From the NCBI RefSeq assembly GCF_020035535.1, contig NZ_CP083349.1:1488001-1552000 (forward strand): a DNA stretch of 64,000 nucleotides, in the 5' to 3' direction. A program made the translations under genes and the position numbers. Origin of the DNA: Ensifer adhaerens (GTDB taxonomy: Bacteria > Pseudomonadota > Alphaproteobacteria > Rhizobiales > Rhizobiaceae). Shown here one piece after another: positions 55,531-64,000 of this stretch (position 1 is the stretch's first letter; the number at the start of each line of letters is the position of its first letter). The notes under the pieces were generated by a model. That model had not been told where the DNA came from, made no database searches, and saw only the letters and a program-made list of their open reading frames with translations.

Positions 55531-56828
55531 GCATCGCGATTATGTCCGTACTCTTCAAGGCGCATCTCGGCTCGACGAGCCGCAAGATGCTGGCGGTGCG
55601 CCTTGCTGATTTTGCCGACGACGACGGAAAAGGCATTTGGCCGACAGTGGCCCGTCTTTCCCGCGAGACTGAGCTTTCGGAGCGCCAGGTGCAGCGTATT
55701 CTCGCCGAATTCGTCGACGAGGGGTTGTTGGTCGTCAAGTCGAGGGGCGGTAGCAAGCCTGGTGAGGCGACGCGCTACGATTTCAGCATGTCGGCGATTG
55801 CTCGCCTGAAGGACCCAAAAGCGAAAAGCGAAGGGTGTCATGGTGTCACCCATGACACGGAGTCACCCACGACACCGGCGGCGGCTATGGGTGACACTGA
55901 CGACGCCGACGGGTGTCACCATGTCACCCAAACCGTAATAGAACCACCAGTAGAACCATCAGATCTGAGAGAGGGTGCGCGCGAAGGTTTTTCGGAAGAA
56001 TGCCAAACCGAGACGTCGGGCTCTATCGAGCGGTCTTTCCGTCGGTGGATGCCAAGCTGGCCGACGTATGTCGGCGACAGTGTCGATGCGGCGAGGTCTG
56101 CGTGGGTTGCTCTTTCGCCCGAAGAGCGAGTAGCAGCCGAGGCGCGCACGGCTGACTACCTCGATGCGGCGAAGGTTGGTGGGCGCAAGACGATCTGCTC
56201 GATGGCGGTCTATTTGCGGGAAAAGCGCTGGGAGAAGCTACCAGCAAAGCCGGCCGCCGCTCAAGGTCCGAAACTTGCCGGGCCTTTCGGCAAGCTCTGG
56301 ATGGCGACGCGCTTGGCTGATCTCTTCCGCAAGCCCTACGGCACGGGGATCGAACTAAACCAGTTTGAGCGGCGGCTTGCTGACAAGATACAGCAGCTTA
56401 TCACCAGTGGCGCAGAGGTGCCGGCGGACCTGACGAAAATGGAGCTATCTATGCTCGCTGACGGTAATCCTGTCGGTTATCTGATGCGCGACAAGGTGCT
56501 TCGCCACGGCTGGCCGCTAGTCAACGAGATGCAGGCGAGGGCTAGCGAGGCGAAGGGATATCCTTGTCCGCAGGACCTGATGCCCTATGCGGAAGCCTTT
56601 CAGCAGGTCCCTCGTGAAGGCGAGCTGTTCTCCGCATGGAAGGCCGAGCACAGCCGGCGTGGATGGCCGTTCTTCTCCGAAGGGCGGTTGCCAGAGTGGA
56701 TCTGGTTCCCACCGCTGATCACCATGGACGGCGGTGGCCTAGATGTGAGCGCAGCGCTCGATCACTTCCACCATCAGATTTCCGACTATCTCGCAGCGAG
56801 AGGCAGGGGCCATGACAATGCAGCGTAA
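55527..56828 (+). CDS. HTH-containing phage replication-type protein
   Basis: The 433-residue product starts with TTG, seven bases after AGGAGG; an ATG five codons later is the alternative but is far from the ribosome-binding site. The N-terminal winged HTH (SRKMLAVRLADFADDDGKGIWPTVARLSRETELSERQVQRIL, in parts) resembles phage replication-initiator helix-turn-helix proteins. The rest is largely unrecognised, ending HQISDYLAARGRGHDNAA. A replication role is inferred from position and the HTH. Confidence 0.68.
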   Translation: MSIAIMSVLFKAHLGSTSRKMLAVRLADFADDDGKGIWPTVARLSRETELSERQVQRILAEFVDEGLLVVKSRGGSKPGEATRYDFSMSAIARLKDPKAKSEGCHGVTHDTESPTTPAAAMGDTDDADGCHHVTQTVIEPPVEPSDLREGAREGFSEECQTETSGSIERSFRRWMPSWPTYVGDSVDAARSAWVALSPEERVAAEARTADYLDAAKVGGRKTICSMAVYLREKRWEKLPAKPAAAQGPKLAGPFGKLWMATRLADLFRKPYGTGIELNQFERRLADKIQQLITSGAEVPADLTKMELSMLADGNPVGYLMRDKVLRHGWPLVNEMQARASEAKGYPCPQDLMPYAEAFQQVPREGELFSAWKAEHSRRGWPFFSEGRLPEWIWFPPLITMDGGGLDVSAALDHFHHQISDYLAARGRGHDNAA

Positions 56829-57450
56829 CGACTTCACCGGAACGCCGATCGCTGCCGAAACGGGCGACAGATACGCGGATCGCATGCGCATACTGACCGA
56901 GGAAATGCTGCATGAGGCGAGCCTGAAGGCTGCGGGTGATTCGCCCTGGTATGTGCTTCAAGTGATGACGGGCCGAGAGAACGCTGTGGAAAAGCTGCTC
57001 GGAGAAGCCGAAATTGAAGTTTGTGTGCCGATGCGGAAGGGGCGTAAAAGACGGGTCAGGCACCGGATTATCGATGGCGCTAGCACGCCAGTGATCATCG
57101 GATATGTGTTCGTTCGCTGCCGTTATTCATTGGCAGCGATGGCGGGCCTACTGGCTGCCGAGCACGTGGTGGGCATCCTCGGCGGCAGCGACAAGCCGCA
57201 TGTTGTCTCTGCCGAGGAAGTGAATCAGTTCAATGAGAAGGCTAACACTGGTCTCTTTGATTGGGATGTTCAATCGGACGTCTTCAGGTCAGGTCAGAAG
57301 GTGCGTCTGAACGGCGGAATGTTCACCGGTTTCATCGGCACGATCGTCTCCTGTAGGGCGGACGGGATGGGCGACGCGGTGGTCGCGCTTGATGCTTTCG
57401 GCCGGATGAAGCCGGTCCTCGTGCCTCTTGCAATCCTCGAAAGAATATGA
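56812..57450 (+). CDS. NusG-like transcription antitermination protein
   Basis: The 212-residue product has a NusG N-terminal domain (DSPWYVLQVMTGRENAVEKLL near residue 44, VIIGYVFVRCRYS, and a VVGILGGSDKPHVVSAEE block). A KOW-type domain closes it (VFRSGQKVRLNGGMFTGFIGTIV near residue 160). An extra basic loop (RKGRKRRVRHR) lies between. It is a specialised NusG paralogue, likely to promote read-through in its own operon. The late genes follow immediately. It overlaps the previous gene. Confidence 0.88.
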   Translation: MTMQRNDFTGTPIAAETGDRYADRMRILTEEMLHEASLKAAGDSPWYVLQVMTGRENAVEKLLGEAEIEVCVPMRKGRKRRVRHRIIDGASTPVIIGYVFVRCRYSLAAMAGLLAAEHVVGILGGSDKPHVVSAEEVNQFNEKANTGLFDWDVQSDVFRSGQKVRLNGGMFTGFIGTIVSCRADGMGDAVVALDAFGRMKPVLVPLAILERI

Positions 57451-57561
57451 GTCTCTCTGCCTCGGAAGATCCGATGATCCAGAGTGAGCCCTTGAGCCGA
57501 TGGCACTGACCGGAGGCGAGCGAAGCCCAAAGCTTCCGGGTCGGTACGCCGGTCGGACCCA

Positions 57562-57656
57562 GCCCTGACCGCCTCGACGAGGCACCGCTTCAGGGCAAGT
57601 GCGAAAGCATTGCCAGTCACCTCCGCATTCAGGCGGGCCTCAGACCGAGCGCCCGC
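57562..57656 (+). other. Tandem stem-loops in the late leader
   Basis: GCCCTGA (57562-57568) pairs with TCAGGGC (57590-57596). GCGGGC (57633-57638) pairs with GCCCGC (57651-57656). A smaller GACCC/GGGTC hairpin follows. Such stacked stems upstream of late genes recall the put RNA sites of phage HK022 or nut-like regions. Confidence 0.4.
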
Positions 57657-57731
57657 CGACCCCGCCCTTCGGGTCCTTCCCGCCCAAAAACTGTAAGCGG
57701 GTGAGGCGGCAGCGCGGGCCTTTTGGCTGTG

Positions 57732-57755
57732 AGTGCGCCCGGCGCACTTTGTTTT
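57732..57755 (+). terminator. Intrinsic terminator directly before terminase
   Basis: The stem AGTGCGC / GCGCACT with a 3-nt loop is followed by TTGTTTT. It lies 25 nt before the terminase small-subunit ATG, so the packaging genes would need read-through or a promoter in the remaining bases. Confidence 0.7.
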
Positions 57756-57779
57756 GGACTTGTTGTTGTTTAGCTCCAC

Positions 57780-58430
57780 ATGACCGATCAACTCACCGAG
57801 ACCGACATTGTCGACCTCGTGCAGCGCTATCCGCTGCCCGAGGTGGTGGAAGATTGCGTCATGACGCAGCAGGAACTCGCCGACGCAATGGATGTGTCGT
57901 TGCCGACGATCGCCGCCTGGATCTCGAAGGGTATGCCGGTCAAGCAAAAGGGCGGCGCCGGCAGCGCTTACGAGCTGCAGCTCTCGCATTGCTTCGCCTG
58001 GCGGCAGGCGCAGAAGGCAAACGAGGATCTGCGGTCGGAAAAAGTGCGCCAGGCGACGCAGGCGCTGCGGCTCGCCCTCGTCGGCGGATCCTCTGGCGAC
58101 ACGATGGCCGCGCTCGATCCAAAAACCCGCCGCGAGATCATGGCTGCACAGCGCGAACACGAGATGTTCGAGCGCGATCGAAACCAGCTGATGCGCCGCG
58201 ATGATGTACGCGAGACCTTCGACGTGGTTTTCAGTCTGATCCGCGATCAGTTGAATGCAGCGCCTGACGTGATTGAGCGCAAGCATGCGCTCGAGCCGAA
58301 GCTAGTGCACGCGCTCATCGATATTTGCGACGACCTTGTCTCCGGTGTGAAAGAGGCGATCGACGCATTCTGGCGCGACCGGCCGGTGCGCGAAGCGACC
58401 GCGCAGAAGCGGGATCTCTTTGATTCATGA
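57780..58430 (+). CDS. Terminase small subunit (Nu1/DUF1441-like)
   Basis: The 216-residue product has an N-terminal winged HTH (MTQQELADAMDVSLPTIAAWISKGMP at about residues 28-53), as in lambda Nu1, then a long charged helix (LRLALVGGSSGDTMAALDPKTRREIMAAQREHE, in parts). It should recognise phage DNA and regulate the large subunit. It overlaps the terminase large gene by four bases. Confidence 0.85.
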   Translation: MTDQLTETDIVDLVQRYPLPEVVEDCVMTQQELADAMDVSLPTIAAWISKGMPVKQKGGAGSAYELQLSHCFAWRQAQKANEDLRSEKVRQATQALRLALVGGSSGDTMAALDPKTRREIMAAQREHEMFERDRNQLMRRDDVRETFDVVFSLIRDQLNAAPDVIERKHALEPKLVHALIDICDDLVSGVKEAIDAFWRDRPVREATAQKRDLFDS

Positions 58431-60616
58431 AAGAGGCTCGGGTCTGGGAGAAGTTCCTTCCTCCGGTTCCGCCGCCAGCCTTCGCCGATCCCTGGGACGT
58501 GGTCGGCGAGGCTTTGCCGGTACTGGCGCCGGCGCGGCGTATCGACGTACCGACCTGGGCAGAGAAGGGGGCTGACGGCAAGCAGGGTCGGAAGATCTCG
58601 TCGCCTGGCTTTTCCGGAGGCTGGCGAAACGACTTCGCGGCTTACATGGTCGAGCCGTCGCGCATGACGACTTCACGCCGCTTCGGTGCGGTAGTCTTTG
58701 CAGGGCCGGCGCGTACTTCGAAAACCGAGCCGCTGATCTTGAACACGATCGGCCATCGCATCGTTTGCAATCCGCGCGACATGCTGGTCGTCTGCTCGAC
58801 GCAGGACGTGGCGAAGCAGTTTTCCGAGCGAAAGCTCGCCCCGATGATCCGTGCAAATAGCTCGATCGCCGAGCGGCAGATGACCGGCCGCGGCTCGGAT
58901 AACATTCACGAGAAGCGGTTCGCGGGGAACATGAACCTGCAGATCCGCTGGCCGGTCATCGGCTATTTTTCGCAGAACGAATATTTCGACGTTCTGCTGA
59001 CCGATTACGACCGCATGCCCGAGGATGTCGACGGCGAAGGGGCGCCGTTCATGCTGGCGCGCAAACGCACGCAACATGCTGGCTCGCAAGGCATGGTGAT
59101 CTGTGAATCCTCTCCGGGTCGGTTGATCGAGCGCGACGACTGGCAGCCATCGACGTTGCACGAAGCGCCGCCCTGTTCGGGGATCCTCGCCGAGTACAAT
59201 CTCGGCACGCGGGGCGGGTTCTACTGGACTTGCCCTTCTTGCGGTGACCCGTTCCGGCCGCTGTTTGAACGGCTGCACTATGAGCGCAAGGCGACGCCCG
59301 GCGAGTCAGCGCGCACCGTCGAAATGGTTTGCCCGAACGGCTGCTGCATCGGCGCCGATCGCAAGCACGAGCTGAATTGCTCTGGCATCTGGTTGCACGA
59401 GACGAATAACGGTCAGAACCTGGTCGAGATCGACGATCCGGCCGTGCGCGACACTGATGTCGTTTCCTACTGGCTCGAGGGGCCGGTCGCCGCGATGCAA
59501 AGCTGGGAACAGCTCGTGATGCGCGCCGAGCAGGGGCGGATCCAATTTGAGGAAACTGGCGACGAAGGCGCGCTGAAGGCGACGATCAACCTTGACCAGG
59601 GGCGGCCGCATCTGCCGCAGATCCGCACGGTCGGCGACACGCTCGCGCCGGAGACGCTGAAGGCGCTTTCCGAGGCCTTTCCGATGCGGGTTGCGCCGGC
59701 CGAGACGCGGTTCATCACCGTGCAGGCCGACGTGCAGCCGAACCGCTTCGTTGTCCAGGTCGACGCCTGGGGGCCGGGGCTCGAGCGTTGGTTGATCGAT
59801 CGCTTCGACATTCACGAGCCGCCGGCCGATGCGCCGAACGCCGCGAACCGCTCGATCGACCCGCCGCGCTATTACGAGGACTGGTCAGCGCTCTCGGCGC
59901 TGCTCGAGCAGCGTTATCCGGTCGCCGGATCCGGCTTCGCGCTGGCGCCGCGGGCCATCGTCGTCGACTTGCACGGCGCCAAGGGCACGACGGATCACGC
60001 CTATCACTGGTGGCGGCATCATCGCCTGGCCGGAAACTCCGGTCGCTGCTTCATCCTGCGTGGTCGCGGCGGCGTCACTCGCGAGCGTGCGACGCTGAAA
60101 GTGCCTGAGAAGGTGCAAGGCACGAAGCGGCGTCGGAAGTCGGATCTTCTCTACATCGAGGCGGGCACCGATCCGCTGAAGGATGAGGTGATCATGTCAC
60201 TCACCCGCAAGGATGCGGGGCCTGGCAAGTATCACCTGCCGGAGACGTTGGCTGAAAACGTCTTCGCCGAATTCTGTGCCGAGGTGCGCACCGATCAAGG
60301 CTGGCGCGAACGCAAAAGCGGGCTGCGAAACGAGGCGCTCGACCTTGCGGTGTACGGCAAGGCGATCGCCATCGTGCTCAAGGCCGAAAAAATCAACTGG
60401 ACGCGGCCGCCGGCATGGGCGGCCGAGATGCCGGAGAATTCTTCCGCTCTTCCGGTCGAGACAGGCACCGCGCCGCCGAAGCGGGGCAGGGCGCCGAAGC
60501 CGTCGGAAAAGCCGACAGAGGCGGCGCCGGCAGCAGCAGCAACCCGGCCGGCGGCCTCGCCGGCCAACCAGTCATCATCCTGGATCCGCCCTCGCGGCAG
60601 CTGGTTCTCAAGGTAG
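58427..60616 (+). CDS. Terminase large subunit (GpA family)
   Basis: This is the packaging motor ATPase and nuclease. The 729-residue product has a deviant Walker A FAGPARTSKTEP (residues 91-102) and Walker B-like VLLTDYDRMPED (189-200). Two Cys pairs, WTCPSCGDPF and CPNGCC, form a likely zinc site, and nuclease-type acidic positions lie in FITVQADVQPNR and VVDLHGAKG. The C-terminal 70 residues are Ala/Pro-rich and low-complexity. Length fits lambda-like GpA. Confidence 0.93.
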   Translation: MKEARVWEKFLPPVPPPAFADPWDVVGEALPVLAPARRIDVPTWAEKGADGKQGRKISSPGFSGGWRNDFAAYMVEPSRMTTSRRFGAVVFAGPARTSKTEPLILNTIGHRIVCNPRDMLVVCSTQDVAKQFSERKLAPMIRANSSIAERQMTGRGSDNIHEKRFAGNMNLQIRWPVIGYFSQNEYFDVLLTDYDRMPEDVDGEGAPFMLARKRTQHAGSQGMVICESSPGRLIERDDWQPSTLHEAPPCSGILAEYNLGTRGGFYWTCPSCGDPFRPLFERLHYERKATPGESARTVEMVCPNGCCIGADRKHELNCSGIWLHETNNGQNLVEIDDPAVRDTDVVSYWLEGPVAAMQSWEQLVMRAEQGRIQFEETGDEGALKATINLDQGRPHLPQIRTVGDTLAPETLKALSEAFPMRVAPAETRFITVQADVQPNRFVVQVDAWGPGLERWLIDRFDIHEPPADAPNAANRSIDPPRYYEDWSALSALLEQRYPVAGSGFALAPRAIVVDLHGAKGTTDHAYHWWRHHRLAGNSGRCFILRGRGGVTRERATLKVPEKVQGTKRRRKSDLLYIEAGTDPLKDEVIMSLTRKDAGPGKYHLPETLAENVFAEFCAEVRTDQGWRERKSGLRNEALDLAVYGKAIAIVLKAEKINWTRPPAWAAEMPENSSALPVETGTAPPKRGRAPKPSEKPTEAAPAAAATRPAASPANQSSSWIRPRGSWFSR

Positions 60617-60620
60617 GAAC

Positions 60621-60821
60621 ATGGCCTATACGCAAACGCAGATCGACGCCCTGAAAAAGGCAATCGCCTCCGGCGTCCTGACCGTTCGCCACGGCGACGA
60701 GCAGGTCACCTATCGCTCGTTTTCCGAGATGCGGCAGCTGCTGAAGGATATGGAGGCGGAGGTCAATCCGTCATCCCAGCCTTCGCGCCGCACTGTTGCC
60801 GGTTTCACGCGGGGGCTTTGA
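60621..60821 (+). CDS. Phage head-tail joining protein (gpW-like)
   Basis: The 66-residue product (MAYTQTQIDALKKAIASGVL...) has the gpW pattern: an N-terminal helix, the beta-hairpin TVRHGDEQVTYRSFSEMRQL, and a C-terminal helix with a basic tail. It fits the 60-70-residue joining protein that connects portal and tail in lambda-like phages. Its ATG follows AGGAAC. Confidence 0.87.
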   Translation: MAYTQTQIDALKKAIASGVLTVRHGDEQVTYRSFSEMRQLLKDMEAEVNPSSQPSRRTVAGFTRGL

Positions 60822-60824
60822 TCC

Positions 60825-62348
60825 ATGAACCTGATCGACCGGATCATTGCCGCGGTCTCGCCGTCGGTAGCGCTGAAGCGTGAGATGATGCGCGGCAAGG
60901 CCGCAGCCCTTTCCGACGCCCGTATGGCCTATGACGGCGCAACGCGCGGTCGCCGGGCTCAGGGCTGGCGGGTTGTGTCGACCGATGCCAATGCCGAGAA
61001 CCTGCCGGCGCTGGGGCGGTTGCGGGATGTAGCGCGCGACATGGTGCGCAACAACCCTTATGCGGCGCGGGCAAAGTCGGCCCTGAAAAACAACATCGTC
61101 GGGCCTGGCATCTTTCCGTCGGTGGAAGCGAAGAACCGCAAGATCCGGACGCTGCTCGAGGATCTCATCAAGCGGCATTTCGACACGAGTGCCTGCGACG
61201 CGCATGGACAGAGCGACCTTTACGGCCTCGAAGCCCTGGTTATGGGAACGGTCGCCGAGGCCGGCGAGGCGCTGGTGCGCCGGCGGTGGCGCCGTGCCGA
61301 GGATGGACTGGCGCTGCCATTCCAGATCGAAGTGCTCGAGCCTGATTTCCTCGACACGTCGAGGGATGGGCCGCTTCCGAATGGCGGATTCATCATCCAG
61401 GGGATTCAGTTCACCCCTTTCGGTCGTCGTGAGGGCTACTGGATTTTTTCCGAGCATCCCGGCGCCGCATCGATGCGCGCGACTAACTTCGAAAGCAAGT
61501 TGGTGCCGGCGGCCGACATCGCGCATATCTATCGCGTAGATCGGCCGGGGCAGGTTCGCGGCGTCACCTGGTTTGCGCCGGTCATCCTGAAAATGCGGGA
61601 TCTCGCGGACTATGCCGATGCGCAGCTCGTGCGGCAGAAGGTGGCGGCGTGCTTCGCTGCCTTCGTCACCTCCGAAGATGACGTGACCGGCGGCGGCGAT
61701 GCGGTCAAGGATGCTGATACCGGCAGCCCTTACCTGGTCGAAGAACTGCAGCCGGGCATCATCCAGCGCCTGAAGCAAGGCGAGGACGTGACCTTCGGCA
61801 CGCCGCCCTCGGTCGGGGAGTATGGGGCCTACAAGCGGGCCGAGCTGCAGGAAGTCGCCGTCGGCATGGGAATGTCGTACGAGGCGCTTTCCGGCGACCT
61901 TAATGGCGTCAACTTCTCGTCGGGCCGGATGGGCTGGCTTGAATTCCAGCGGACCATCGCTGCCGCGCAGTATCACATGCTGCTGCCGCAGCTCTGCGAT
62001 CCGCTCGGCCGCTGGTTCCTCGAGGCAGCTGCGCTGATGCTTGGCGCGGGCGTCATGGACGCAAAGGTGCGTTGGACGCCGTCGCCGCGCGAGATGATCA
62101 ATCCGGCCGAGGAGATTAAGGCTGCGGTCAGCGCGATGCGCTCCGGCCTTTCCTCGCGACCCAGCGAGCAGCGCAAGCTCGGTCATCATCCAGAGGATCT
62201 CGATCAGGAGATCGCCGACGCAAACAAGCGAGCCGACAAGCTCGGTCTCGTCTTTGACAGTGATCCGCGCCGCGTGACCAGCACCGGCAATGCCGTCGCC
62301 CTTGGCGGTGAAACTTCCAAACCGACAGGAGAAGAAGGCGATGTCTAG
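60825..62348 (+). CDS. Phage portal protein (lambda-type)
   Basis: The 507-residue product begins MNLIDRIIAAVSPSVALKRE and matches lambda gpB-type portals: AYDGATRGRRAQGWRV, NPYAARAKSALKNNIVGPGI, and the conserved GMSYEALSGDLNGVNFSSGRMGWLEF near residue 345. It forms the dodecameric DNA-entry ring. The stop overlaps the start of the protease-capsid fusion. Confidence 0.95.
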   Translation: MNLIDRIIAAVSPSVALKREMMRGKAAALSDARMAYDGATRGRRAQGWRVVSTDANAENLPALGRLRDVARDMVRNNPYAARAKSALKNNIVGPGIFPSVEAKNRKIRTLLEDLIKRHFDTSACDAHGQSDLYGLEALVMGTVAEAGEALVRRRWRRAEDGLALPFQIEVLEPDFLDTSRDGPLPNGGFIIQGIQFTPFGRREGYWIFSEHPGAASMRATNFESKLVPAADIAHIYRVDRPGQVRGVTWFAPVILKMRDLADYADAQLVRQKVAACFAAFVTSEDDVTGGGDAVKDADTGSPYLVEELQPGIIQRLKQGEDVTFGTPPSVGEYGAYKRAELQEVAVGMGMSYEALSGDLNGVNFSSGRMGWLEFQRTIAAAQYHMLLPQLCDPLGRWFLEAAALMLGAGVMDAKVRWTPSPREMINPAEEIKAAVSAMRSGLSSRPSEQRKLGHHPEDLDQEIADANKRADKLGLVFDSDPRRVTSTGNAVALGGETSKPTGEEGDV

Positions 62349-64000
62349 TCTGATCGTCAATGGTGAACTCGTTCTGTATGGCCCTGTCGGTTATTGGGAC
62401 TGGTGGGAAGATACCGGCTTCAACTCGGCAAGGGTGATCGAGGCGCTGGCCGAGCTCTCCGGAGATATCGTCGTGCGGCTGAATTCCGGCGGCGGCATCG
62501 CTATGGAAGGCTCGGCGATCTACAACGCGCTGAAGCGCCACGACGGCAAGGTAACGATCAAGATCGACGCGATCGCCGCTTCGGCTGCTTCGGTCATCGC
62601 TATGGCCGGCGACGTGATCGAGATGCCGCACGGCACGCTGATGATGATTCACGAGCCGGCGGGTATCACCGCAGGGCCTGCCGATGAACATCGCCGCACG
62701 GCTGCCGTTCTCGATACGATGACCGGCGTCTTCGCGCAGCTTTATGCCGAGCGCACCGGCCTTTCCGAGGCCGAGATCCGCAAGATGATGAAGGATGAGA
62801 CCTGGCTTTCGCCGACCGAGGCGGTCGCCAAGGGATTCGCCACGGCGGCGACTGAAGCGGAAGCTGCGGCGACCGCCGACAGCACCTTCGACTACCGGAC
62901 TTACATGCATGCTCCTGCGGGCCTCGGCACGCAGGCTCGAGATCGCCAGGCACAAGGCCTGCCGATGGTCGCGGTGGCGTCCGCCCCGCTCTCTACAAAG
63001 GAGACGCATATGTCTAAACCCCTGATCCCGACGGCGGACAATCCTGCTCCCGCCCCGACTGCATCCATTACTCCGGCGCCGGCTCCGGCACCTGCCGCCG
63101 ACCCGGCTGTCGTGGTGGCAACCGGCGACGTCGTCATGCGCATTCTGGAACTCTGCACGACTGCGAAGATGACGCTTGCCGATGCAAACAAGATCGTCGC
63201 GGATGCTGGTGGCGACTTCGGCAAGGCGCAGACGCTTGTGATCAATCACCTCGCCGGCCAGGATCCGACCGGCGGCCGCGTCAGCCCTGGCGCGACGACT
63301 GTCACCGCCGACGGCCGCGATCGCTTCAAGCAGGGTGCCGAAAAGGCGCTGCTGTTCAAGGCCGGCATGCAGGGAGGTGAGGTCAACGAATTCACCTCGA
63401 TGTCGCTGCGCGAGCTCGCTCGCGAGCACCTGCTGATGTCCGGCGTCTCGAAGCTTACCATGGGTGATTCCATGGCGATGATCGGCATGGCGCTCGGCAT
63501 GCGCCAGTTCTCGATGTCTGGCGCGGCTCATTCGAGCTCGGACTTCGTCGAGATCCTCGCCAACATCGCCAACAAGTCGATGCTGAAGGGCTATCTTGAA
63601 GCCGGTGAAACCTTCCCGATTTGGACCGGTCGCGGCGTTCTCACCGACTTCAAGCCCACGAAGCGCGTCGACCTGAACCTCTTTCCGGCTCTGTCCGCTG
63701 TGCCGGAAGGTGGCGAGTATTCGTTCGCGACGATTGGTGACCGTGGTGAACAGATCCAGCTTGCCACCTATGGCAAGATGTTCTCGATCACCCGCCAGGC
63801 GATCATCAACGACGACATGTCCTTCTTCACGAAGGTGCCGTCGCGCATGGGGCGTGCGGCAATCCGCACTGTCGGCAATCTGGTCTATGCCGTGCTGACC
63901 GCGAACGCAGCCATGGGCGACGGCATCACGTTGTTCCATGCTGACCACGACAACGTCGGCACTGGCGCCCTGACGACTGCCAGCCTCGACGCTGGCCGCG
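62341..64000 (+). CDS. ClpP-like prohead protease / major capsid protein fusion (truncated by the window end)
   Basis: The frame is open from its ATG to the right edge (over 550 codons, no stop seen). Residues 1-200 are a ClpP/S49-like prohead protease: catalytic Ser81 in AIAASAASVIAMAG, His104 in MMIHEPAG, and the following ETWLSPTEAVAKGFA block. A Pro/Ala-rich linker follows. From about residue 260 it is a major capsid protein (FTSMSLRELAREHLLMSGVSK, VPEGGEYSFATIGDRGEQI). An in-frame ribosome-binding site at residue 224 suggests an extra product. Confidence 0.9.
   Translation, partial: MSSLIVNGELVLYGPVGYWDWWEDTGFNSARVIEALAELSGDIVVRLNSGGGIAMEGSAIYNALKRHDGKVTIKIDAIAASAASVIAMAGDVIEMPHGTLMMIHEPAGITAGPADEHRRTAAVLDTMTGVFAQLYAERTGLSEAEIRKMMKDETWLSPTEAVAKGFATAATEAEAAATADSTFDYRTYMHAPAGLGTQARDRQAQGLPMVAVASAPLSTKETHMSKPLIPTADNPAPAPTASITPAPAPAPAADPAVVVATGDVVMRILELCTTAKMTLADANKIVADAGGDFGKAQTLVINHLAGQDPTGGRVSPGATTVTADGRDRFKQGAEKALLFKAGMQGGEVNEFTSMSLRELAREHLLMSGVSKLTMGDSMAMIGMALGMRQFSMSGAAHSSSDFVEILANIANKSMLKGYLEAGETFPIWTGRGVLTDFKPTKRVDLNLFPALSAVPEGGEYSFATIGDRGEQIQLATYGKMFSITRQAIINDDMSFFTKVPSRMGRAAIRTVGNLVYAVLTANAAMGDGITLFHADHDNVGTGALTTASLDAGR
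62997..63012 (+). promoter_or_regulatory. Internal ribosome-binding site and start in the protease-capsid fusion
   Basis: AAAGGAG followed by six bases and ATG lies in frame at codon 224 of the fusion, just after the protease domain. The product would start MSKPLIPTADNPAP and be scaffold plus capsid only, comparable to the nested C/Nu3 arrangement of lambda. Confidence 0.65.

Follow-up and report, generated by a model that had tools for sequence, protein, structure and literature searches.

A NusG paralogue and a conserved leader RNA as a probable late-gene control module of rhizobial phages

This study concerns a phage-type NusG paralogue gene and the leader RNA that adjoins it in the window, a stretch of 64,000 nucleotides of Ensifer adhaerens DNA (contig NZ_CP083349.1, positions 1,488,001 to 1,552,000); together they are likely to constitute a late-gene control module of rhizobial phages, with read-through as the mode of action suggested by the comparison of sequences. 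Across the relatives this comparison shows the order replication-initiation gene, NusG paralogue, RNA beginning at the stop codon, usually a terminator-like hairpin, and then terminase and the late genes, and more than a hundred related phage contigs and bacterial genomes carry the RNA next to this same NusG gene. The comparative evidence establishes the leader as a real element, and the RNA probably helps RNA polymerase to pass a stop signal and reach the late (virion) genes. The nusG gene has been annotated before; for its RNA partner no earlier description appears to exist.

The original prediction, made from the letters of the DNA, placed a NusG-like gene before a gene-free gap of about 330 bp, and this was confirmed, as an open reading frame (ORF) of 212 amino acids occupies 56812–57450 of the + strand and the gap from its stop codon to terS, 57451–57779, measures 329 bp. 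The gap as a whole had been taken for a structured leader, which holds for its 5′ part, 57451–57612 (+ strand), where a conserved structured RNA was found, whereas 57613–57779 holds a packaging-like signal instead. RNA model R1 matches 57448–57612 with 122.4 bits, the window being among the model's own sequences. The element comprises approximately the first 160 nucleotides past the nusG stop codon and consists of the long-range helix P0, an internal domain, a P1/P2 arm and the near-invariant hairpin P3. The arms of P0 (57464–57475 and 57552–57560) are 76 nt apart and enclose the internal domain, in which one hairpin (57522–57526/57532–57536) has a GNRA-type loop in many relatives and shows two-sided changes in all four of its pairs, and in which a small hairpin, CGG-UACG-CCG, lies at 57542–57551. 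P1 (57562–57568/57590–57596) surrounds P2 (57571–57575/57579–57583), both being supported by covariation and P1 also across leader classes, and the element closes with P3, AGUGC-GAAA-GCAUU, at 57597–57612. In relatives P3 mostly reads AGUGC-GNNA-GCUAUG or AGUGC-UACA-GCUAUG, the 3′ side of the window copy having diverged. Because P3 and the small UACR hairpin are near-invariant, they are backed by conservation and not by covariation; the invariance of P3 in loci that were retrieved by pattern is partly ascertainment, as the search pattern itself sets the P3 end.

For the 43 main-class leaders, a structure of nine helices (43 pairs) was standard-paired in 92.4% of cells, a share that dropped to 25–49% when the 3′ arms were slid, and 148 cells with two-sided changes were counted against 48 in shuffles. 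The P0 arms of these leaders are 64–85 nt apart, and one P0 pair is split between UA (22 sequences) and GC (21 sequences); such two-sided compensatory changes in a long-range helix point to an element that acts as RNA. P0, P1 and P3 are kept in 55 leaders of all classes, with 93.1% of cells paired and 88 two-sided cells against 33 in shuffles. The structures used in both tests were derived from the same alignments and are thereby favoured over their slid versions, and the shuffle-based scores are inflated by the relatedness of the sequences. Single-sequence folding of 57461–57612 was better than that of shuffled sequences (z of -2.7, 2/200 as good), and that of the gap 57461–57779 weakly so (z of -1.65, 7/100 as good). 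The leader had no match among the 4227 models of Rfam release 15 at gathering score or E ≤ 5, the only match in the window being a tRNA elsewhere. An alternative pairing of GCCCU (57488–57492) with the 3′ arm of P1 was rejected for want of covariation support, as it gave 80.0% standard pairs in the 43 leaders and 80.2% in shuffles. The possibility that the AUG ending P3 serves as a start codon was dropped by eye, since the window has no AUG there, short frames being present in some relatives, and a leader–terminator pairing was likewise set aside by eye because the stretch from P3 to the terminator lacks conservation.

The linkage of the RNA to the NusG gene was followed in both directions. 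A search with blastn of the gap matched five phage records, each directly downstream of a NusG homologue. A scan of viral contigs for the 3′ motif gave at least 120 loci, a lower bound; among those listed, 109 have a NusG homologue ending 91–154 nt upstream, ten have too little sequence and one has none. In the corresponding GTDB scan of 66 matches, NusG was found in 59, the locus edge intervened in two and no NusG was present in five, which belong to other phyla or classes, lie outside Hyphomicrobiales by title and score 9.4–17.9 bits; eight scored loci of the other 61 reached 54.9–149.5 bits. These counts rest on the longer pattern, since the short pattern AGTGCGNAAGCTATG gave many NusG-less loci: of 49 places matching only the latter, 11 have NusG upstream, ten have too little sequence and 28 have none, and the 28 were taken as chance. 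The same was concluded for six loci (L029, L231, L239, L254, L265 and L274) that carry the longer pattern without NusG and score at most 17.9 bits. A covariance-model scan of 201 genomes identified 19 places in 16 genomes, and NusG lies directly upstream of each of the 17 with E ≤ 1.6e-8, five of the 17, including that of the window, being sequences used for model building; the two weak places have no NusG there. In 385 genomes drawn from the class, matches were confined to the genome of the window and one weak NusG-less place, and the nusG–RNA system looks to be confined to near kin. In the converse test, in which 25 phage-type loci were fetched by protein similarity, 23 carried the RNA at 41.8 bits or more, one carried a weak match and one carried none; 15 of the 23 were independent of model building. 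The order of the neighbours is equally regular among 168 paired loci, pooled from two collections with duplicates between them kept: terL lies downstream in 82/82 loci with 3.5 kb of downstream sequence, and a replication-initiation protein lies upstream in 119/120 with 2.3 kb of upstream sequence. The original prediction had named conservation of gene, leader and terminator in other rhizobial prophages as a check, and the trio is indeed kept in many other rhizobial phages and prophages. The leader class moreover follows the protein, with nine changes of class on the NusG tree against 22 on the replication-protein tree of the same 65 loci, and 11 changes on a NusG tree of 77 rows against 31.8 when shuffled. 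Three loci (L207, L208 and L212) with weak RNA-model matches of 21.9–26 bits have no NusG homologue, and one phage record with the nusG–RNA pair, PP395642, names Nostoc sp. as its host.

A terminator-like hairpin with eight pairs and a loop of three (TTTGTTTTGG) was located by a terminator scan at 57731–57749 of the + strand, before terS, with a T-rich tail extending to 57755. The scan, which covered 3 kb on both strands, returned six sites compared with 2.3 (standard deviation 1.7) in shuffles, so that the window hairpin alone is weak evidence. Among 110 distinct leaders, from protein-found and pattern-found loci and excluding the window, which lacks the exact pattern, 93 have such a hairpin within 120 nt past the RNA, mostly within 25 nt, compared with 31/550 mononucleotide shuffles. 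The terminator announced before terminase was thus found, yet it sits inside the packaging-like region, whereas in relatives the hairpin follows within 120 nt of the RNA. The 3′ half of the gap, 57613–57779, is probably packaging (cos) DNA: CGGGTCCTTCC (57670–57680, + strand) opens a conserved stretch to 57700, 110 nt before terS and outside the RNA element, and recurs in loci L023 and L025, 113 and 127 nt ahead of terS or the corresponding gene; there a gene separates this packaging-like signal from the RNA, which lies 0.8–0.9 kb upstream of it. In L004 CGGGTCCTTCC also follows soon after the RNA. A stretch, TTGTTGTTGTT, within 57670–57779 is also present in L012, L023 and L043. Just before terS, at L023:5721–5834 and similarly in L043, inspection by eye showed a second terminator-like hairpin carrying a T-run. 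Both of these loci also carry a terminator right after P3, and the terminator of the window may be the counterpart of their second hairpin.

The end of the nusG gene carries a further signal, CCTCTTGCA-N3-CTCGAA, which spans the last codons (57424–57441, + strand) and is exact in the window. At the eighth codon from the end, counting the stop, leucine is encoded by CTT in 105/105 cases, compared with 144/665 for other leucine codons in the last 100 codons, and isoleucine is encoded by ATT in 15/15, other residues taking this place in 20/140 rows. In a redundancy-reduced set of 80 sequences, CTT was used for leucine in 58/58 against a background of 21% (p of 1.9e-40, the top of 205 codon tests), and the next four signals all fall within the last nine codons (CCT at -9 in 38/59, CTC at -5 in 30/53, GCA at -7 in 31/64 and GAA at -4 in 33/43). 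This synonymous-codon bias implies that CCTCTTGCA-N3-CTCGAA is constrained as DNA. Within it, CTTGCA (57427–57432, + strand) probably serves as the -35 element of a late promoter; sigma70 sites of S. meliloti are given as CTTGAC-N17-CTATAT in the available part of PMC2873474. TTG precedes the opening GG of P0 by 38–39 nt in 107/137 leaders, and in the same comparison positions 9–11 before this GG are AT-rich. On the strength of the codon constraint, the spacing and the AT-rich trinucleotide, the simplest reading is that a late promoter probably overlaps the end of nusG, with its transcript starting at the RNA. A strong late promoter downstream of the terminator would have spoken against the original prediction; no sigma70-like + strand site was found in 56000–59000 or in the 19.9 kb of L281, which cover the late region and slightly more, 59001–63499 being left unscanned, and the probable promoter lies upstream of the leader, at the nusG end.

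On these grounds a mechanism can be proposed. Transcription from the promoter with its -35 element in the last nusG codons would begin a few bases before P0, and the RNA would fold on leaving RNA polymerase and either bring the phage NusG paralogue to the elongation complex or hold it there. The complex thus modified would ignore the terminator and read approximately 24 kb of late genes; until enough NusG paralogue had been made, transcription would end at the terminator. We lean towards a wider form of this proposal, in which a viral NusG paralogue and a multi-helix recognition RNA of its own replace lambda Q in Hyphomicrobiales phages, the ribonucleoprotein loads just after initiation from a promoter inside the gene of the protein, and antiterminator gene, target promoter and target RNA form one portable cassette. 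NusG-type antitermination in place of lambda Q had been suggested at the outset, and it gains from the conservation of the trio and from the absence of the lambda-Q-type families PF03589 and PF06530 (0/7 in each search of the genome of the window and six related phage records, with a positive E. coli control), while the RNA on which it was thought to act turned out to be only half of the gap.

Several observations weigh against a late-gene module of this kind. With regard to termination, 17/110 leaders have no terminator by the same test, and that of the window lies approximately 119 nt past P3, inside the packaging-like region. As for the RNA, the P3 of the window has GCAUUG and not GCUAUG on its 3′ side, the minimum-energy fold of the window contains P2 and P3 but lacks P0 and P1 (GCCCU at 57488–57492 pairs with the P1 3′ arm and the P0 5′ arm forms a local hairpin), and the seven pairs with two-sided change across the 55 leaders of all classes were equalled in 39/500 shuffles, which is not significant. 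The promoter is affected as well: the putative -10 element (approximately 57450–57455) is weak in the window copy, the spacing from the -35 element to the RNA is 36 nt there and not 38–39, and approximately one sequence in seven (20/142) has neither leucine nor isoleucine at the key codon, four of them having GTT. Best E. coli-type sigma70 matches of at least 9/12 near the nusG stop codon occur in 19/110 loci against 10.7 when shuffled, 11 of the 19 at this position, and the rhizobial sigma70 consensus occurs there in 10/110 loci against 11.8 from shuffles. Finally, one NusG homologue (L020:1402–2049) has no RNA detectable by the model and is followed by GGCGAAGCTATC, and linkage and co-inheritance may partly reflect adjacency, the comparison tree being that of the replication protein and not that of terL.

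Other explanations of the same arrangement were considered. Cis-acting antiterminator RNAs are known and the leader here is large and structured, so the RNA alone might make RNA polymerase terminator-resistant, as do put of HK022 and EAR, with the phage NusG acting elsewhere; a purely cis element would, however, be expected beside other neighbours too, whereas NusG is directly upstream at 17/17 strong genome places and at 109/110 testable viral loci among the matches listed, and the leader class tracks the NusG tree better than the replication-protein tree, which renders this account unlikely. It is also rather unlikely that the RNA serves nusG itself, as an attenuator or a 3′ untranslated element for autoregulation, mRNA stability or termination of the early operon. 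Such a role would agree with the start of the RNA at the nusG stop codon and with a following hairpin that could simply end the early operon, but same-strand terL lies downstream in all 82 testable loci, L281 has no + promoter-like site, and the codon signal, at a near-fixed distance from the first helix, suggests the RNA as the point where transcripts start.

Two explanations place the function in the DNA. Recruitment of the phage NusG by the element CCTCTTGCA-N3-CTCGAA, as RfaH is recruited by ops, with the RNA secondary, is improbable: the constraint on this block is very strong and reaches beyond the -35 hexamer, as such recruitment would have it, but the block precedes the RNA by roughly the interval that separates a -35 element from a transcription start, and it resembles the sigma70 -35 element of S. 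meliloti, CTTGAC, as given in the accessible text of PMC2873474. That the conserved block acts as a packaging, replication or regulator site with incidental hairpins appears very improbable, as two-sided compensatory changes in a helix with arms 64–85 nt apart point to RNA, and although the 3′ half of the window gap resembles a packaging region, in L023 and L025 the packaging-like signal is separated from the RNA by 0.8–0.9 kb and a gene. A NusG paralogue acting through the leader RNA on late transcription remains the preferred reading.

The protein itself has an N-terminal extension of approximately 45 amino acids, and the start of its ORF overlaps the 3′ end of the replication-initiation ORF, which ends at 56828. 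The NGN and KOW domains named in the original prediction are both borne out. The NGN domain is matched by Pfam NusG with 62.2 bits against a cut-off of 22.2, as are 46/46 family members at E ≤ 0.001, and phrog_6386, 'transcription antiterminator', matches at 6.3e-39. The Pfam KOW model has no match to the window protein at E ≤ 0.001 and matches 4/46 family members; the family profile, on the other hand, aligns with the C-terminal (KOW) domains of solved NusG structures. The AlphaFold2 model (predicted local distance difference test, pLDDT, of 87.4; predicted template-modelling score, pTM, of 0.79) has an NGN region, a C-terminal all-beta domain and an extra N-terminal helix at residues 21–37, residues 1–14 being of low confidence. 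Its best PDB matches are NusG proteins, with RfaH and the 'NusG-RNA complex' 8f5g also among the matches. The predicted strands, the PDB matches and the family profile together assign a C-terminal KOW barrel of the NusG superfamily. The scores for individual NusG types all fall below their cut-offs: housekeeping NusG (TIGR00922, 52.4 against 135.7 bits), LoaP (NF033641, 46.5 against 125), RfaH (TIGR01955, 32.3 against 144.5) and UpxY (NF033644, 60.3 against 100).

The genome of the window (G000) has four NusG-family genes: that of the window, C1:1130252, C1:3080211 and one on contig 2. The gene at C1:1130252 is separate and has the best Pfam NusG score of the genome; its locus (L003) has no leader RNA by the model. 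The second phage-type gene (3080211) lies within C1:3079832–3080648 on the - strand and has its own leader RNA, of another subtype, and terminator. The fourth gene, C2:2607073–2607351, lies outside both phage loci. Among viral contigs, L004 has the protein closest to that of the window (74% identical).

The first late gene, terS (phrog_141), occupies 57780–58430 of the + strand with its ATG at 57780, and terL (GpA), also assigned by profile, follows at 58427–60616 (+ strand). Mostly co-directional genes, including those for head decoration, major tail, tape measure and endolysin, continue to approximately G000:C1:1570115, with one picked ORF of 103 amino acids on the opposite strand. Just past the last co-directional late gene a strong terminator-like site with a long T-run was observed (L281:18676–18698). 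In the six related phage records the NusG gene follows a replication- or helix-turn-helix-type gene (an unnamed gene in one) and precedes terminase, the NusG–terminase order spanning the end of the record in two of the six.

A literature search, outside which most subscription papers lay, returned, among the texts it covered in part, no paper on NusG paralogues that are encoded by phages and paired with a leader RNA. PMC5537653, which deals with the phages of L023 and L025, does not contain 'NusG' or 'antitermination' in its main text, and the main text of PMC7593976, on NusG paralogues, contains no word starting 'phage'. In phiLM21-like prophages a 'transcription antiterminator' gene and an HNH endonuclease gene end the early region (PMC12429752, in the passages available); this gene is set beside the window protein by the name in its annotation and not by kinship, the passages concerned mention neither an RNA nor a promoter nor a mechanism, and no word starting NusG occurs in the main text. 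If the proposed module is correct, phages captured a NusG paralogue and paired it with an RNA for late-gene control, which would be a second example after LoaP of RNA-guided action by a NusG paralogue and, as far as the literature search showed, the first in a virus. It would explain how late genes are turned on in many rhizobial phages without a recognized Q, offer a small cassette with which RNA-guided antitermination could be reconstituted and bring in an RNA family without a match in Rfam release 15.

Among known systems, lambda has its antiterminator gene Q between the replication and the late genes, followed by pR′, a leader, the terminator tR′ and the late genes. The order of parts is the same here, with a probable promoter at the end of the antiterminator gene; lambda Q, however, is not of the NusG family and binds DNA, whereas here a NusG paralogue and an RNA are found and PF03589 and PF06530 have no match. 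The put RNA of HK022 and EAR RNA are likewise structured leader RNAs implicated in antitermination, although neither is known to be linked to a NusG paralogue gene, whereas the present leader adjoins one and has no Rfam match. RfaH is, similarly, a NusG paralogue specialized for particular operons; it uses the nontemplate DNA element ops (PMC12691694, in part) and undergoes a fold switch (PMC6370827, in part), whereas the C-terminal domain of the window protein is beta in the model and TIGR01955 scores below its cut-off. The likeness to LoaP is that of a NusG paralogue near its target operon, with a leader RNA element, then an intrinsic terminator and a long operon downstream. A LoaP protein is characterized by its binding to a leader RNA hairpin and by overcoming termination that NusA stimulates. 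In the portion of PMC12691694 available, Bacillota, Actinomycetota and Spirochaetota are named as the groups in which LoaP is reported, close to biosynthetic operons, and the dfn leader element is one small UNCG hairpin, whereas the RNA described here has approximately 100–160 nt and several helices, and its protein is encoded by phages, mostly of Hyphomicrobiales.

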